Shown here in pieces: positions 3,185-24,697 of a stretch of DNA of 24,697 nt. Every line of letters begins with the position of its first letter. Position 1 is the first letter of the stretch. A model generated the notes under the pieces. It made no database searches. It was not told where the DNA came from and saw only the letters and a program-made list of their open reading frames with translations. Position numbers and translations under genes: made by a program. The stretch comes from a virus. The stretch covers positions 1 through 24,697 of IMG/VR virus record IMGVR_UViG_3300047409_000038. One strand, 5' to 3'.

Positions 3185-3784
3185 ATGGCTGGAACCAGTT
3201 TTCCTCAAGGACGCGGCGGCTCCAATGTCGCAGTAATGGCAGTTGGCACGGAACGCGAAGGCGCTCCGGTACTCGGCTCCGACGTGTGTGTTGTCCACAC
3301 TGCGGAAGGTGAAGACTCGGTGCAGCTTCCTGTTGCACACGTCGGCGGTTCGCCGATCACCGTGATCTCGGTGCCCAACCCCGACGGTACGCCGCCTGCG
3401 GCGCACGGGCATGTCTGGCCAGCGGAGAATGGCCGGATTCAAGGCGAAGGGATCGACGAGTCCTGCGATCTCCAACCCATGGTAGTGACCACGTTCATTC
3501 CTGTTTCGGATACGGACTGGGCGGTGAATCTCAGCGCTGCTCCAGCGGCGTCGGGGGATGCACTCGCCGTACGCACTCCTGAAATGGAAGCGGAAGCTGC
3601 CAAGGCGCGCTGTATCGCCAAGGCCGACGCTGCCGCAGCGAAGGCGAAGGCCGAGGCCGAGGCCAAGGAGAAGGCCGAAGCGGACGCCAAAGCAAGGGCC
3701 GAAGCCGAGAAGGACGAAGCGGACGCCGAAGCTCGCTACAAGGCAGGCGGGAAGAAGCGCCACGCCGCTGCCGCCGAAGCCTAA
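3185..3784 (+). CDS. Head-region protein with Ala/Glu/Lys-rich C-terminal tail; possible capsid decoration protein
   Basis: This encodes a 199-residue protein with AAGGAG (3170-3175) nine bases before the ATG. Residues 1-130 look like a small beta-rich globular domain (MAGTSFPQGRGGSNVAVMAV at the start, SPITVISVPNPDG and PMVVTTFIPVSDTDWAVNLS later). Residues 132-199 are a TolA-like Ala/Lys/Glu helix (KAKAEAEAKEKAEADAKARA) ending in a basic AGGKKRH segment. Placement between scaffold and major capsid protein suggests a head role such as a cement or decoration protein, which is inference. The low-complexity tail is encoded by near-repeated GCC-GAG/AAG codons and may vary in length between relatives. 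Confidence 0.7.
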   Translation: MAGTSFPQGRGGSNVAVMAVGTEREGAPVLGSDVCVVHTAEGEDSVQLPVAHVGGSPITVISVPNPDGTPPAAHGHVWPAENGRIQGEGIDESCDLQPMVVTTFIPVSDTDWAVNLSAAPAASGDALAVRTPEMEAEAAKARCIAKADAAAAKAKAEAEAKEKAEADAKARAEAEKDEADAEARYKAGGKKRHAAAAEA

Positions 3785-17987: not shown

Positions 17988-20900
17988 ATGGCTTTCGACA
18001 GTCTCCGTACCAAAATCCCGTGGATGAAGGATTTGTCCGACGACGAGATTTTGCTAAAGACGTCGGCAGCTACGGGCATGGACCCGAAGGAGATTGCCGA
18101 CTATTACGGGTACGACGCGCCCTCGTCGATGATGGGCAAGGAGTTGTCGGCTGGGTGGGAGAATTACAAGGCGGGCATGGGCCACATCGGTTCAGCGATG
18201 GGCATCCCCGGCGCGGCGGAATGGACTGCGAAAAAGAAAGCCAAGGCGGAAGCGCTGCAATCTCTGTCCACGGCCCCGCACTCGTTCGAGGAGATGAAGT
18301 TCGGCGACCCCGAGAAGGGAGCGCTGCCGTATGTCGGGCAACTCTTTGCAAGCTCAGCCCCGTACATGGCCGAAGCGGCGGGCTACACGCTCGCTGACGT
18401 GGCGACGGGTGGCGCGCTGACGCCTGCGATCCTCGCTCGCTACGCCCCCGCTGCTGCACGGCTTGGCGTCACCGTGCCCGAGTTCCTTGGCGGGCAGGGG
18501 GTCAGGGCCGGTGCCACGTTCGCCGAGCGGCGCGCTGCGCTCGCGGCGGCGGAAGAATCAGCCCCCGCCTTGGCCCGCACGGCCATGATCCCGGCAGTGA
18601 CCTACCCGTCCTCGCTGGGCGACGTGCTGGGCAACCAGCAGGAAGAGGCGGGTAAGTACAACCTGCCACGCGCGATGGCCGCAGCGTTGCCGTACTCGGC
18701 GCTTAACATCCTCGGGCTGGAGGGTGCGGTCACCAAGGGCGCACTCCCTCGGCTGGGCATCAAGAGTCTGGAAAAGAACATGGCGGGCCGCGCCGCGTCG
18801 GGTGTGCTCGCCACAGGTGCGTCGGAAGCGGTCAACGAGACTGGGCAGGAAGTGATGAACCAGTGGGGGCGGATGGGTGTGAATCCCAACGCCACGTTCA
18901 CTGATCCCGGTGCGCTTGAGCGGTACAAGGAGTCGGCCATCGGCGGCGCGATCCTCGGTGGCCTTCCCGGCTCACTGCATGCCTTTGGCGGTCATCGTGG
19001 ACCGCTCGACACCAAGCAACCTGCTGACCTGACCAAGCGCCTGCCCGACCAAGATTACGCGGAGCAGTTCGGGTCGCACTTCGCACCCGAGGGGTTGGGT
19101 CTGCGCACGCCGGAGGAACACGCGGCCTACACGCAGAAGCAGGCCGAAGACGACCTCATGGCACGGCTCAATCCGGGCGCTGCGCCTGCCGCGCCTGTGT
19201 ATGGGACCGATGCCGTCGGCGAGATGGAACGTGCGGCTGGGGTCGCTCCCGGTACCTTTGCGCCGGTCCCTGCTGCTGCCAAGGTCAAGCCCAAGGCCGC
19301 AGCCGACGCCGCCACGACTGCTGCCGCCCCTGCCACCGCTGCTGCGACGGTCGACCCGGTGCTCCAGCAGGTCGAAGCCACGCGGGCAGAAATTCTCGAC
19401 GCGCACGCGCGGTTGTTCCCCGAGAAGCACGCAGCGCGAGCGGACAGACCCTACCTGACCCATCAGGAGCTTGTCCGGTGGACAGGCAACCCGAAGACGG
19501 TGGATGAGGCCGTCGCCACGCTCAAGTCGAAAATTGTTGGTGCGCTTACGCAGCCGGGCAAGGGCAAGATGGCCCGGAGAGCCAACGCGGAGGACATGCT
19601 CCGGCTGCACGACGAGCTTCTCGGCCTGCCGGAAGATCAGCGCCTGTCGCTGGATGACTGGGAAGCCAACCTCAAGGCCGAGAGCGCGCTCGCCGCTGCC
19701 AAGGTCGGGGATGCAGGCAAGTTGCCCGGTGCAGTCACGACGGTTGAGCCAAAGACGCTTGAACAGGAAGCTGCGTTGGCGAAACTCCGTGAGCGGGTGG
19801 CGGCAGGCGAAGCACCGTTTATCGACTACGAAACTCAGGGGGATGGTTCCATCACTGTCTACGCCAAGGGGATCGGGTCGGTTGACAGCAAGTGGAAGGT
19901 CAAGCTCGACCTGACACCAGAAGAACAAAGGGCGGCGAAGAAAGCTATCGCGCTGGATAACCTCGCCGAAACAGCGGAAGAGAAAGCTGAAGCGAAGCAA
20001 GCAATGCAGGATGCGGTTGGGGCTGCGGCTGCGCGGCATGCGGGTGTCGCTCCTACTGCAACCGCCGCACCGACGTCCACCGCACCTGTGCCGGGGGTGT
20101 GGCACGTCGTAGAACGCATGGGGAAGTTCTACATAGGCAACGCCAGCAAAGATGGCAGAAGCAGGGAGGAGCAGGGAGACTTCCCCACACGTCAGGCAGC
20201 GCAGGCATGGGCAGATAAACTCAACGCTGACATAACGCCGAAGGGTGCCACCACTACCGAAGTGGAAACCCCGCCTGCGGCACCGGCAACTCCCACCGAG
20301 GAAGAGCGCGTCGCGAAGCGGGAGCAGCTTACTACCGCCATCAGGGGTGGCTTGACCGACAAGGAGTGGGAAGCGCTCCGGCTCACACGCGGCAAGGAGG
20401 AGAACCTCGCGGGGGGCGTGGAGAAGACCGCCGAGGAGTTGGCGAAGGAGCAGGCGGCAGACGAGACGGCAGCGTACCGGACGGAAGACGACGAGGGCGA
20501 TGGCGGGGGAGCGCCCGAGGAACAGCGCGCCGATACGATACGCGGCACCGCTGCCAAGCTGGGTCTTGCGCCATCGACGTTCCAAGGTGTGCTGAAACGG
20601 GCGCAGGAAAAGGTCGCGGCCCTCGCCGCCCAACATGGAATTACCGAGGACGACGCCAACGAACTGCTGGGCTTGCAGTCGAGCTACGACGTTGCGGCGG
20701 TCGACTTCGCATCTACGGGCTACTCGGGAAAGGAGCGGGTTGCCACAGTTGACGACCGCCCGGAGTTGACGGGAGAGGCGTACGACACGACGCATGGCGA
20801 AGCGGAAGCCGCAGCCACCGAAGGCGAGGGTGAAGGTGAAGAAGTCGCCGTCGAAGGCAAGAAGAAAGAGGTGCAGCCCGAGAACAAGTGGGTCGACGCG

Positions 20901-23900
20901 CAGGGCCAGTCCATCTCGCACGCTGACGTGCAGGATGCGGCGGAAGATTACGGTAACCACGAGATGGGGTACGCGGCAGGCGATCCTGCGTGGGGGCAGT
21001 TGTCACCCAAGCTCCAGCTACAGTGGGTCCGTGGTTACCTCGCGGCACACACCATGTACCCGAAGACGAAGCAGGCACCGGAGCGGCGCAAGTTCACCGA
21101 CGTCGTGCGTACGGCCATGGCGGAAGAACAGGAGCAACCCAATGAAGCAGACACCGATACAGCAGGCGCTGACGAAGGGGCAGGCGCAGACCGTCAAGCA
21201 GAAGAAGGCGCAGATGACGCCGGAAGAACTGAAGGCGGCGAACAAGAAGTGGGCGGCGTTTCAGGAACAGATGAGAAAGCAGATACGGGACGAGTACCAC
21301 CTGCCGCAACCGAAGGTGAAAAGCCTGCCGACGCTGAAAAAGCTGGGGGAGGAACCGAAACCGCCCCAGTCGTAAAGCGCAAGCGGAAGGTCGCCGGGGG
21401 CAAGGCGGAAGCCGTATCCACGCCCGAGCCGGAACCGGAGATACCCGAGACGACGGGCGAGCGTGCGCTGCGCAAGTGGAACGAAGCCAAGGCCATCGCG
21501 CCGGAGCTTGGCAACTGGGGCGACCTGTCGCATCAGGCACGGAAAATATTCACCGCTGCGGAGGAGAAGGACCAGAAGCTCGCCGATGCGATGAAGCTGA
21601 AACAGGAGGAAGGGAAGCTCCGCGATCAGCACGGCAACATCGTGACGCCGCGTGATGACACGAAAAAAGAAGAGAAGCCTGCCAAGAAGCCGACGAACAA
21701 CTTCGAGCGGGCGAAGCAGATGGAAGCACTCGCCGACGAGAACGATGCGAAGGGCAGGCCCGTAGTCGCACGGCTGCTGCGCGAACGCGCTGCGGAAATC
21801 CGTACGGAACCCGAACCCGAGGAAGGCGCGCCCAAGGAGCCGCCAGCCGAAGGTGGCAACATGCTGAGTGCCATCCGGGCTGAACCGGGCGTGGACATGG
21901 TACGGATGGCGAAGCTGTTGGGGCCGCAACTCTATGGCAATCTCAACGACATCGGCCCCGTCACCATCAAGGAGTTGTTCCAGAACGCATTCGACGCCAT
22001 CAAGGATGCGATCAAGCTGGGCAACCAAAGAAGTGGCGAGATTTCAGTCAGCCTTGACGAGAACGCACGCACGATCACGTTGACCGACGACGGCGCTGGC
22101 ATGACGCCGGAGATCATCAACAAGGCGTTCCTGACGCTGGCCGGGACGAAGAAGGAAACCGACCGCTCATCGGGTGGCCTCGGCATTGCCAAGATGCTGT
22201 TCCTGTTTGGCAACGAATCGCTGTCGCTGAAGACGGTGCGCAACGGTGTCGAAAGCACGCTGAATACGTCCGGTACCCAGTTGATGGAGTCGTTTTCCGA
22301 TCCGACGAAAGCACCGGACATCCATACAAAGAAAACCACCGACCCATCGGGCACGACGATAACAGTCAAGGTGCCCAAGACTTTCTATAACGAGGCGACC
22401 GACACCACCGACGAGATCAAGTTTCCTCCTCGGTATCGGGCCAGAGAAATACTGGAATCAAGTCCGCTGTTTGAGCCAATCAGTGTCAAGCTTAACGGGG
22501 ATTTGATAGACATTGGCAACAACTTCCCCGCAGATGAGTGGACGGTGCTGGCCGTGCCGAAGTTCGCATGGGGCAAGGTCCGTGTGTTGGTGAAGCCGAT
22601 GGAATATCCGGGCTTTGAGAACGTGACCATGCTGTCGAACGGCATCGTTCAGTTCTATGCCAAGATTGGCAAAGAACCCGGTGATCCGTTTTCTGCTCCA
22701 GCGCCCTACAAGTTCTTTTTCAACATCGAGCCGGATGTAAAAGCCGACGCCCCGAACTACCCGATTGCGCTCAACCGGAAAGGGTTCTCGCGTTCCGCCG
22801 AGAGTGACTTCAAGACGTTGCTGAACTACCTCGCCGCCATGTACGCCAACACGGTGAGCGAGCAAAGTTCGCAGTCGTTTGGGGCGCTATCGCTATTTTC
22901 GGAGGATGGCAAAACTGAAAAAGAAGTCGACCTCAACGTACCCAAGGCGGCAGCGGGCACTACGCTGAACATCAACAAGGGCGACAAGGTCGAGTTGCGC
23001 GATGGACGGATGTACGTCAACAACCGGGCGATGCCGGAGTTGACGAAGGAAGACCTGAAAGCAATGAAGCACGACCCCGGACAATTCCGGGTCAGTCAGG
23101 ACTTGATCGACCCCAACAAGTTGATCGTCCACGACAACGTGCTGCTCAATGACAAGCCCTATCTGGACGAGGCGCGGGCTGCACTCGGGGAAGACGCAGT
23201 CAACGGTTATCTGCTTGGCTTCGCCCGTGCGTTCAAGCGCATACGCGATGCTGCGGTGAAACTAGGCGGTGCGAAGTATGCCGACCTCGGCAGCGTGCCG
23301 GTCGGGGTAAGCATCGACACCAAGTATTACGGCGTCAACACCGTGGTTCCGTTCAAAGCCATGATGTTGAATCCAACTGTGTTCAAGAGCGACAACATCG
23401 ACGACATGCCGATAGCGTTCGCTGGCACCATGGTCCATGAAATAGCGCACCACCCCGAGCGCAATCACAGCGAGACAGGGTTCATCCCCGAGGTGCAGCG
23501 GATGCTTGTTACCTTGTCGCTGTCGGACGATGTGCAACGGGCAGTGATGGACCTGCAACTCATCGCCAAGGATTATGGTCACGTATTCGATTATTTCGTC
23601 AAGGAGTCGAACAGTGGAAATCTCAAGAATCGTGGCATCCGCTTGGAAGGTGGGGAAGAACGCGTCGGGGGCGAAGGCGATGCTGGAGGGACTGCTGGGA
23701 CCAGCGGAAACCGAGGGAATGCGGAAGACAGCACCGGACTACGTCAATCTACTGGAGCGAGCAATCAAAACCGCGCCCAAGGCCAAGGACGCACAGGAGC
23801 ACCTGCGGCTAATGCGGGAAGGACGCTAGGAGCGGGACAGAGTTTCGCGTCGCGCAAACACCTGAGCAAAGTCCACGAGTTTGCACAAAGGCATGGCCTT

Positions 23901-24697
23901 GGGTTCATGATTACCGAGGACATCGCCGACCTCGCCGCTGCGAATGGCTTGGGGGAAGTGCGCGACTACGTCGAAGCCACCAAGCAGCGGGAAGGCGCGC
24001 GCCGGGAGTTCGAGGCTCCGGTAGCCAAGATCGCCGAGTTGTACGACCAACTGCCGGAACGCGAGCGCGGCACGGGCGCTGGCAGCGTCAACAAGTTCTT
24101 GCACGACGCGACTACCACTGGCAGTACCACTGGCATCAACGCGCTGTCGGCGACGGGGCAGCAACTGGTCAAGGCTGTGTTCCAGCATGGCAAGGACGTA
24201 CTCGCGCTCAAGAAGAAACTCATCGAGGACGAGGTCGGCGGGGAGTACAGCAAGCGCATCGCCCAAGAAACGGACGCTGCCAAGAAAGCCGAACTGGTCA
24301 AGGAGCGTGACCTAGTCCTGAGAAAGTTCAGCAAGCTGTGGACGAAGGGTCCGTCGGATACCTACGCGCCGCTCAAGCGGTTCGGCGACTATGTAGTGTC
24401 GGCCAAGTCCAAGGAGTATGTGCAGCATGAGGAGGGCAAGACCGACGCGGACAGGAAGTGGATCAGCGCCAACGAGTCAGACCCGGCTCACGTCCAGATG
24501 CACTTCGCCGACACCATGGCCGAGGCCGAGGCACTGGAAGCGCAGATCAAGCAGCAGTACGACTTCAAGGGTGGCAAGACCTACGCCGCCGCGCGCGAGG
24601 CCGACATCCACAACAGCCGCGACCTGTTCCGTGCCTTCCCGGTATTGCAGACGCGGCTCGAAGCCGAGTACCCGATGCTCGACGGCAAGCCATCGCC
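17988..24697 (+). CDS. Giant polyvalent/ejection protein with GHKL ATPase and zinc metallopeptidase (3' end outside window)
   Basis: The frame from ATG 17988 has no stop to the window end: at least 2,236 codons. It follows two ejection-type genes, so it is probably packaged and injected with the DNA. Residues 1-330 are Ala/Gly-rich with hydrophobic helices and could form a channel. About 340-700 is Ala/Pro linker and charged helices. A small beta-beta-alpha unit begins at W705. A GHKL ATPase lies at about 1310-1480: N box E1329, N1333, D1336; G1 box DDGAGM (1367-1372); G2 box SSGGLGIAK (1394-1402). After a middle region comes a zincin: H1817-E-I-A-H1821-H-P-E-R-N-H1827. YAPLKRFGDYVV from 2126 resembles regions of other giant phage proteins. 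No lytic transglycosylase motif is seen. The ATG has no clear SD sequence, suggesting low expression. Two small genes are nested in its +1 frame. Confidence 0.85.
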   Translation, partial: MAFDSLRTKIPWMKDLSDDEILLKTSAATGMDPKEIADYYGYDAPSSMMGKELSAGWENYKAGMGHIGSAMGIPGAAEWTAKKKAKAEALQSLSTAPHSFEEMKFGDPEKGALPYVGQLFASSAPYMAEAAGYTLADVATGGALTPAILARYAPAAARLGVTVPEFLGGQGVRAGATFAERRAALAAAEESAPALARTAMIPAVTYPSSLGDVLGNQQEEAGKYNLPRAMAAALPYSALNILGLEGAVTKGALPRLGIKSLEKNMAGRAASGVLATGASEAVNETGQEVMNQWGRMGVNPNATFTDPGALERYKESAIGGAILGGLPGSLHAFGGHRGPLDTKQPADLTKRLPDQDYAEQFGSHFAPEGLGLRTPEEHAAYTQKQAEDDLMARLNPGAAPAAPVYGTDAVGEMERAAGVAPGTFAPVPAAAKVKPKAAADAATTAAAPATAAATVDPVLQQVEATRAEILDAHARLFPEKHAARADRPYLTHQELVRWTGNPKTVDEAVATLKSKIVGALTQPGKGKMARRANAEDMLRLHDELLGLPEDQRLSLDDWEANLKAESALAAAKVGDAGKLPGAVTTVEPKTLEQEAALAKLRERVAAGEAPFIDYETQGDGSITVYAKGIGSVDSKWKVKLDLTPEEQRAAKKAIALDNLAETAEEKAEAKQAMQDAVGAAAARHAGVAPTATAAPTSTAPVPGVWHVVERMGKFYIGNASKDGRSREEQGDFPTRQAAQAWADKLNADITPKGATTTEVETPPAAPATPTEEERVAKREQLTTAIRGGLTDKEWEALRLTRGKEENLAGGVEKTAEELAKEQAADETAAYRTEDDEGDGGGAPEEQRADTIRGTAAKLGLAPSTFQGVLKRAQEKVAALAAQHGITEDDANELLGLQSSYDVAAVDFASTGYSGKERVATVDDRPELTGEAYDTTHGEAEAAATEGEGEGEEVAVEGKKKEVQPENKWVDAQGQSISHADVQDAAEDYGNHEMGYAAGDPAWGQLSPKLQLQWVRGYLAAHTMYPKTKQAPERRKFTDVVRTAMAEEQEQPNEADTDTAGADEGAGADRQAEEGADDAGRTEGGEQEVGGVSGTDEKADTGRVPPAATEGEKPADAEKAGGGTETAPVVKRKRKVAGGKAEAVSTPEPEPEIPETTGERALRKWNEAKAIAPELGNWGDLSHQARKIFTAAEEKDQKLADAMKLKQEEGKLRDQHGNIVTPRDDTKKEEKPAKKPTNNFERAKQMEALADENDAKGRPVVARLLRERAAEIRTEPEPEEGAPKEPPAEGGNMLSAIRAEPGVDMVRMAKLLGPQLYGNLNDIGPVTIKELFQNAFDAIKDAIKLGNQRSGEISVSLDENARTITLTDDGAGMTPEIINKAFLTLAGTKKETDRSSGGLGIAKMLFLFGNESLSLKTVRNGVESTLNTSGTQLMESFSDPTKAPDIHTKKTTDPSGTTITVKVPKTFYNEATDTTDEIKFPPRYRAREILESSPLFEPISVKLNGDLIDIGNNFPADEWTVLAVPKFAWGKVRVLVKPMEYPGFENVTMLSNGIVQFYAKIGKEPGDPFSAPAPYKFFFNIEPDVKADAPNYPIALNRKGFSRSAESDFKTLLNYLAAMYANTVSEQSSQSFGALSLFSEDGKTEKEVDLNVPKAAAGTTLNINKGDKVELRDGRMYVNNRAMPELTKEDLKAMKHDPGQFRVSQDLIDPNKLIVHDNVLLNDKPYLDEARAALGEDAVNGYLLGFARAFKRIRDAAVKLGGAKYADLGSVPVGVSIDTKYYGVNTVVPFKAMMLNPTVFKSDNIDDMPIAFAGTMVHEIAHHPERNHSETGFIPEVQRMLVTLSLSDDVQRAVMDLQLIAKDYGHVFDYFVKESNSGNLKNRGIRLEGGEERVGGEGDAGGTAGTSGNRGNAEDSTGLRQSTGASNQNRAQGQGRTGAPAANAGRTLGAGQSFASRKHLSKVHEFAQRHGLGFMITEDIADLAAANGLGEVRDYVEATKQREGARREFEAPVAKIAELYDQLPERERGTGAGSVNKFLHDATTTGSTTGINALSATGQQLVKAVFQHGKDVLALKKKLIEDEVGGEYSKRIAQETDAAKKAELVKERDLVLRKFSKLWTKGPSDTYAPLKRFGDYVVSAKSKEYVQHEEGKTDADRKWISANESDPAHVQMHFADTMAEAEALEAQIKQQYDFKGGKTYAAAREADIHNSRDLFRAFPVLQTRLEAEYPMLDGKPS
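21130..21134 (+). promoter_or_regulatory. Ribosome site of nested gene 21142-21375
   Basis: AGGAG lies seven bases before ATG 21142, inside the giant gene. This ideal spacing is the main evidence for the start of the nested gene; the giant gene's own start has no comparable signal. Confidence 0.6.
21142..21375 (+). CDS. Small Lys/Gln-rich gene nested in the +1 frame of the giant gene
   Basis: This encodes a 77-residue protein (MKQTPIQQALTKGQAQTVKQ at the start, helical KKWAAFQEQMRKQIRDEYHL in the middle, Pro/Lys-rich end). AGGAG is seven bases before the ATG. By hand count about 64 of 77 codons end in G or C in this frame, against about 27 of 78 in the giant frame over the same bases, so the genome's codon bias follows the nested frame. 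In the giant frame the stretch (residues about 1052-1129) is low-complexity Gly/Ala/Glu/Asp linker. The frame upstream of 21142 is Arg/Ser-rich and looks non-coding. The function is unknown; a small basic helical partner of the giant protein or of nucleic acid is possible. Confidence 0.62.
   Translation: MKQTPIQQALTKGQAQTVKQKKAQMTPEELKAANKKWAAFQEQMRKQIRDEYHLPQPKVKSLPTLKKLGEEPKPPQS
23601..23606 (+). promoter_or_regulatory. Ribosome site of nested gene 23614-23829
   Basis: AAGGAG lies seven bases before GTG 23614. The hexamer and its spacing decide this start over the ATG at 23575, which has only AAGGA two bases away. Confidence 0.6.
23614..23829 (+). CDS. Second small gene nested in the +1 frame of the giant gene (GTG start)
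   Basis: This encodes a 71-residue protein, helical and mildly basic: V/MEISRIVASAWKVGKNASG, then AKAMLEGLLGPAETEGMRKT and a final DAQEHLRLMREGR. AAGGAG precedes the GTG by seven bases. By hand count about 50 of 71 codons end in G or C in this frame, against about 33 of 72 in the giant frame. The overlapped giant-frame residues (about 1876-1948) are Gly/Asn/Gln/Ser-rich linker just after the metallopeptidase motif. It has the same relative frame (+1) as the nested gene 2.2 kb upstream, but I see no clear similarity between the two proteins. The function is unknown. A chance frame remains possible, though less likely given the start signal and codon bias. Confidence 0.6.
   Translation: MEISRIVASAWKVGKNASGAKAMLEGLLGPAETEGMRKTAPDYVNLLERAIKTAPKAKDAQEHLRLMREGR

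Follow-up and report, generated by a model that had tools for sequence, protein, structure and literature searches.

A small gene very probably overprinted on the predicted linker of a giant phage gene and conserved in its relatives

The window, by which we mean the whole stretch of DNA analysed here, is a virus record of 24,697 bases (IMGVR_UViG_3300047409_000038). Its head genes match PHROG families of portal or adaptor, major head and internal virion proteins, and its major head protein shares 43% identity with its counterpart in Rhizobium phage RHph_TM3_14A and about 31% with those of Roseobacter and Pelagibacter phages. The ORF list places a giant gene at positions 17988 to 24697 of the plus strand, which codes for at least 2236 residues and runs off the end of the window; complete relatives of its product measure about 2500 to 3400 residues. 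Two features of the giant protein stand out on the same strand: a HATPase_c domain at 21966-22379 (PF02518, Pfam profile match with an E-value of 1.7e-8) and, at 23436-23450, the HExxH motif (HEIAH) of a metallopeptidase-like domain, recognised from the sequence and an alignment. Residues H152, E153 and H156 of this motif are invariant in a 24-row alignment. AlphaFold2 modelled the HExxH domain with confidence (giant frame of window positions 22983 to 24035, 24 rows), and a Foldseek search of the PDB for a zincin fold returned nothing at E ≤ 0.001; archaemetzincin and other zincins came up only at E > 1.

The nested ORF lies downstream of the motif, at 23614-23829 of the plus strand, and is delineated by the ORF itself, family similarity, a profile and a predicted fold. 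It starts with GTG, ends with TAG (23827-23829), codes for 71 residues free of internal stops and is fully contained in the giant ORF, with respect to which it is in the +1 frame. The Shine-Dalgarno (SD) sequence AAGGAG at 23601-23606 (+), a motif also enriched in the relatives (see below), is separated from the GTG by a 7-base spacer, exactly as the initial annotation had read it. A longer start in the same frame, ATG 23575 (84 residues), was rejected; the SD sequence and the family similarity belong to GTG 23614. The initial annotation had also ascribed to this frame a protein-like composition and a better third-position G/C bias than the giant frame has there, and both observations stand. 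The G+C content at codon positions 1, 2 and 3 is 0.66, 0.46 and 0.70 in the nested frame, nearly the same as in the whole giant gene (0.65, 0.46 and 0.73), compared to 0.69, 0.65 and 0.46 in the giant frame over the overlap. Its description of the giant frame as a Gly/Asn/Gln/Ser-rich linker was likewise borne out, as Gly, Asn, Gln, Ser and Ala make up 61% of the overlap, with 18 glycines in 71 residues, and the segment is predicted to be disordered (see below). A frame of the nested length remained open in 31% of the recodings of the window's giant protein with its own synonymous codons (P = 0.31; range 0.02-0.59 over 14 sequences). The ORF alone therefore proves nothing, and its openness was dropped as evidence in favour of conservation tests.

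Relatives of the nested ORF were found from either frame. A scan with the window's HExxH region as query gave five contigs, all five with a nested ORF that starts with ATG and shares 51-56% identity with that of the window. The nested alignment A1 gave the same five contigs and L007 (67% identity). The giant-frame alignment A2 gave the five contigs again together with L018, L019/L020 and L021/L022, and a +1 ORF is in place in all of these additions. The nested alignment of L018/L019 led to 23 contigs, every one of which (23/23) has the ORF inside the giant gene and in the same frame. The profiles of the window's group (group A) and of group B cross-match nested ORFs weakly (E-values of 0.002 to 0.07), and no other ORF was matched in the loci examined at that point.

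The largest collection came from A10, a giant-frame alignment of the HExxH region; the patterns searched for lie upstream of the overlap, into which the last six codons of the alignment itself extend. Scanning viral contigs with A10 yielded 72 loci, and a +1 ORF is in place in 72 of 72. Profile B, built from nested proteins, matches the ORF in this slot at E ≤ 0.0023 in all of these loci except L121 (71/72). Since 22 of the 72 contigs were already among those whose sequences built profile B, the independent count is that of the other 50, in which the nested profile matches 49. We also built a leave-group-out profile from 58 proteins that comprised neither the window's group A nor the L021 group. 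Among 3,648 six-frame ORFs, this profile found the window ORF at an E-value of 3.8e-9 and all seven group-A ORFs, and nothing else at E < 0.5. Recognisable members thus occur in 79 contigs: 71 of the 72 A10 loci, L044 and the seven group-A contigs, the window included. The initial annotation had made its nested gene depend on conservation of the frame in relatives, and the frame is found conserved by position (72/72) and by profile (71/72).

A few loci depart from this pattern. The slot ORF of L021, L022, L048 and L049 went undetected by the leave-group-out profile and obtained an hhalign probability of 1.8%; as far as sequence comparison reaches, it is a positional counterpart only. At L021:8305-8526, L048:3545-3766 and L121:3302-3607, the slot holds a +1 ORF of similar length without detectable relation to the family, which would reflect either extreme divergence or the replacement of one nested gene by another. 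In L001 (5329-5634), L002 (8365-8670), L003 (1571-1876) and L004 (8365-8670), a low-complexity tail extends the nested protein to 101 residues, compared to the 69 to 78 residues at which it ends in L005, L007 and the window. In L115 (3335-3762), the giant ORF stops at 3762, soon after the nested stop at 3610, and is succeeded by a new ORF in a different frame; this locus represents either a split giant gene or a sequencing error, and the nested gene is kept in it nonetheless.

We then compared the two frames over the same bases. Synonymous divergence of the giant gene, taken at columns of the giant codon alignment with identical residues, falls over the overlap to a ratio of 0.01-0.27 among the 7 sequences of group A and of 0.13-0.30 among the 19 of group B, the median being about 1.03, and in both groups the overlap holds the lowest synonymous divergence of the whole giant alignment. 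The dN/dS values of the nested and giant frames over the overlap were 0.35 and 0.54, 0.33 and 1.97, 0.29 and 1.68, 0.29 and 0.79, and 0.12 and 0.53 in five groups; the order is reversed in the outgroup L021/L048 (two sequences; nested 0.47, giant 0.34). Within the overlap, substitutions are fastest at nested position 3, which is giant position 1, in six of six groups (two of which have overlapping members), whereas on both flanks they are fastest at giant position 3 (6/6 groups). All 67 distinct proteins are free of stops over their first 66 nested codons, and in every one of these 67 sequences the other alternative frame is closed. Similarity between nested proteins exceeded that obtained by synonymous recoding of the giant proteins with z scores of 15 to 23 within groups and 6 to 11 between groups A and B (11 pairs overall). 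Taken together, the substitutions indicate that the nested frame is under purifying selection and that the giant frame is relaxed over the overlap. The overprinted small gene that the initial annotation placed after the metallopeptidase domain is therefore supported by comparison, with a conserved frame, nested dN/dS values of 0.12-0.35 in the five groups, a synonymous minimum and a switch of periodicity. Although synonymous constraint by itself would be compatible with an RNA or DNA element or with a constraint of the giant protein's own, such an origin of the conservation is hardly credible given that the substitution periodicity follows the nested codons, that the giant frame is relaxed over the overlap, that the recoding controls are exceeded by z scores of 6 to 23 and that Rfam has no match at E ≤ 0.1 for window positions 23000 to 24200.

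The start signals of the nested ORF are kept in the relatives as well. The 67 distinct proteins start with ATG (46), GTG (20) or TTG (1); L119, with no start codon in the search range, and L121 were left out of the 67, and these counts are partly conditioned, as a start codon was required when choosing the start in the newer loci. For the starts fixed by alignment alone, an SD 4-mer precedes 25 of 28, compared to 10.5 expected from recoding of the giant frame, and the full AAGGAG precedes 12 of 28, compared to 2.5 expected. The figure for the larger set (60/67 compared to 29.7 expected) is biased because the newer-locus starts were picked partly by their SD sequence, which leaves 25/28 as the clean figure. 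The last upstream in-frame stop is found at a median of 5 codons before the nested start in the 67 sequences, and 22 codons before it in the window. We infer that the SD and start signals, together with the upstream stops, argue for internal initiation and against a frameshifted fusion. A +1 ribosomal frameshift from the giant frame, which would yield a truncated giant protein with a helical tail, fits the +1 position of the nested frame, but the upstream stops leave scarcely any room to shift in most of the 67 sequences and the SD and start codons are enriched or kept, making this reading very improbable.

Internal translation from the SD/GTG signal would yield a product with a pI of 9.8 and a mass of 7.8 kDa, predicted to be all-helical. 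AlphaFold2 (26 rows) modelled the window's nested protein as an all-helical bundle with a mean pLDDT of 91.5 and a pTM of 0.77, with helices at residues 3-14, 17-33, 36-39, 41-56 and 60-69. The linker of the giant frame coincides with the nested gene (23646-23855, +). It corresponds to residues 222-291 of the model of window positions 22983 to 24035, all of which lie below a pLDDT of 50, and each ten-residue block lies below 40, with block means of 28 to 39. According to these models, the same DNA codes for a folded protein in one frame and for a disordered linker in the other. The linker would tolerate the nested gene because it needs no defined sequence, and the pair is a clean natural example of the way in which one DNA can accommodate two codings. 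A fold search with the nested model found nothing at E ≤ 0.001 in the PDB (Foldseek) or BFVD. A second look at the structural matches placed the colicin D immunity protein at the top (1tfk_B, Z = 4.9; 1v74_B, Z = 4.6), below the level that separates helical bundles.

Sequence searches did not connect the nested protein to anything known. The search for free-standing phage homologues that the initial annotation had proposed was carried out on named phages, prokaryote genomes and 40 whole contigs, and returned none. In named phages, tblastn with the nested proteins of the window, L027, L102 and L098 gave no significant match, and two records of Streptomyces phage Lannister (E = 0.6 against the window protein) were judged to be chance. 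No match was found in two scans of prokaryote genomes, nor in a viral scan with the window protein alone, in which the exact peptide patterns were too specific. Of 40 whole contigs, 38 are hit by the nested profile A12 a single time, within the giant gene; the two contigs without a match are those of the outgroup L049 and of L121. The window's nested protein matched 0 families of Pfam and PHROGs. When 26 members were scanned up to an E-value of 1, the best hits were scattered, at 0.0015 for Pfam (Fe_dep_repress, 4/26) and 0.0055 for PHROGs (2/26). A sequence search of the PDB returned a single row (E = 0.39) and no significant relative.

Named phages were also searched with the giant gene. For the part of it that precedes the nested gene, tblastn returned four weak records, all on or just before the HATPase part, the HExxH regions of L027 and L098 gave no match, and DNA-level searches for relatives of the host gene gave none. 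In Rhizobium phage RHph_TM3_14A, Roseobacter phage CRP-13 and Pelagibacter phage HTVC033P, which have a related capsid protein, A12 and A6 were unmatched, an empty answer that is uninformative alone. Searches of open-licence papers by title and abstract opening returned none that describes a gene nested within a giant phage gene of this kind.

On the strength of the comparative evidence, the nested ORF is very probably a genuine, unannotated protein-coding gene that is overprinted in the giant phage gene and internally translated. Ribosomes would initiate internally at the SD/GTG signal on the mRNA of the giant gene, so that a compact, soluble, helical protein of 71 residues would be made alongside the giant protein. 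As to its function, our first guess, which is tentative and weakly inferred, is that it is an accessory to the giant protein, translated from one and the same message. Bound to the giant protein, it could keep the HExxH region or the linker competent for assembly or ejection inside the producing cell. This guess is prompted by the position of the gene immediately behind the HExxH domain and by our never having found a copy outside the host gene. The co-occurrence of the two genes comes partly from physical linkage and therefore argues only weakly that they function jointly.

A narrower version of this role would be that of an inhibitor or immunity-like partner of the putative-peptidase HExxH domain, protecting the producing cell until packaging. 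The gene is encoded directly behind that domain in 72 of 72 loci, the colicin D immunity protein at the top of the structural comparison may be kept as a weak lead, and intragenic antitoxins exist in Rpn systems (PMC10327210). However, Z scores below 5 are insignificant for a small helical bundle and Foldseek returned nothing at E ≤ 0.001, and we regard inhibition as unlikely. Alternatively, the small protein may be real but independent of the giant protein, acting for instance late in host takeover or in counter-defence, with the linker serving as mere coding space. Its product is predicted to be compact, soluble and folded, small phage proteins often act on hosts (PMC11323111), and physical linkage alone can explain the co-occurrence. 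The absence of any copy outside the giant gene in our searches would be odd for a mobile, independent function, and we hold an independent role to be possible though somewhat doubtful.

A further alternative leaves the coding status of the nested frame untouched and reverses its history: a free-standing small gene would have lain between two genes, and the giant ORF would have been read through it in the other frame, making the linker the newcomer. In the window and L007, codon use in the nested frame is more genome-like than in the giant frame, the giant-frame dN/dS over the overlap rises to 1.68-1.97 and the giant ORF of L115 stops at 3762, just past the nested gene, with a new ORF behind it. 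Across 67 sequences, however, codon use favours neither frame (higher for the nested frame in 31/67), and a relative with a free-standing copy was not found. We consider a late arrival of the linker conceivable, without leaning towards it.

The nested gene has a parallel in the same giant gene. A second synonymous minimum, of 0.24-0.38, was observed in group B at columns 1065-1105 of the giant alignment, and it corresponds to another +1 ORF of about 55 to 59 codons. This ORF is present in 17 of the 17 group-B giants that cover the place; two of the 19 end short of it, and no start codon was identified in L029 and L034. Supported by the synonymous minimum and a profile, the second nested family occupies an earlier linker of the giant gene, for instance at L027:4365-4538, L018:1766-1939 and L023:3837-4007 (all +1 frame), and is unrelated to the first. 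Its profile also matches L021/L022, L001, L002 and L004; the matches in L001 (3148-3378) and L021 (5560-5841) are given as stop-to-stop frames in the +1 frame. The window and L007 have no match to the second-family profile and contain other +1 ORFs in that linker. Window positions 21142-21375, in the linker before the HATPase domain, hold a +1 ORF of 77 residues that starts with an ATG preceded by CAGGAG and is perhaps the first nested gene of the initial annotation. The second-family profile does not match it, and neither L007 nor L001 yielded a conserved counterpart.

With the two families together, it seems probable that hidden genes have a permanent place in the linkers of giant phage proteins. 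Two or more families, unrelated to each other and deeply conserved, would then live only there, out of frame within one giant gene, as co-evolving products of one message, across a large uncultured lineage and missed by standard annotation. This points to a searchable annotation gap in phages, namely out-of-frame ORFs over the disordered linkers of giant genes. To our knowledge, out-of-frame nested genes of tailed phages have rarely been supported by sequence to this depth.

Overprinted phage genes that lie on the same strand as their host gene and out of its frame are known, embedded lysis genes being an example; a case in single-stranded RNA phages is the subject of PMC7693330. There, as here, a small gene is fully contained in a longer one that is read in a different frame, has start signals of its own and is missed by annotation. 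Unlike embedded lysis genes, the gene described here is predicted to code for a soluble helical bundle and resides in a giant gene of a tailed phage, on a predicted disordered linker between domains; it also differs from them and from known families in that its product has no detected sequence relation to any known family.

The host gene has likenesses of its own. Polyvalent proteins with zincin-like MPTase domains have been described (Iyer et al. 2017, PMC5512222), and the giant gene is like theirs in that its product is a very large phage protein of several domains whose HExxH motif is invariant, here along with a HATPase_c domain. This likeness concerns the host gene and not the nested gene, it comes without a Foldseek match to a zincin fold at E ≤ 0.001, and the word "overlapping" is absent from that paper. 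The N4 virion RNA polymerase gp50, a giant virion protein of 3,500 residues from a short-tailed phage, also carries an HExxH motif (PMC12633501). Its gene shows no nested counterpart: the +1 ORF spanning the HExxH motif ends at codon 2247, no +1 ORF of at least 50 residues follows until codon 3057, and the profiles A, B and nonAC have no significant match. In N4, encapsidation of the virion RNA polymerase reportedly requires the region that carries the MPTase domain (PMC5512222), so that packaging is a sensible place to look for the role of the nested protein.
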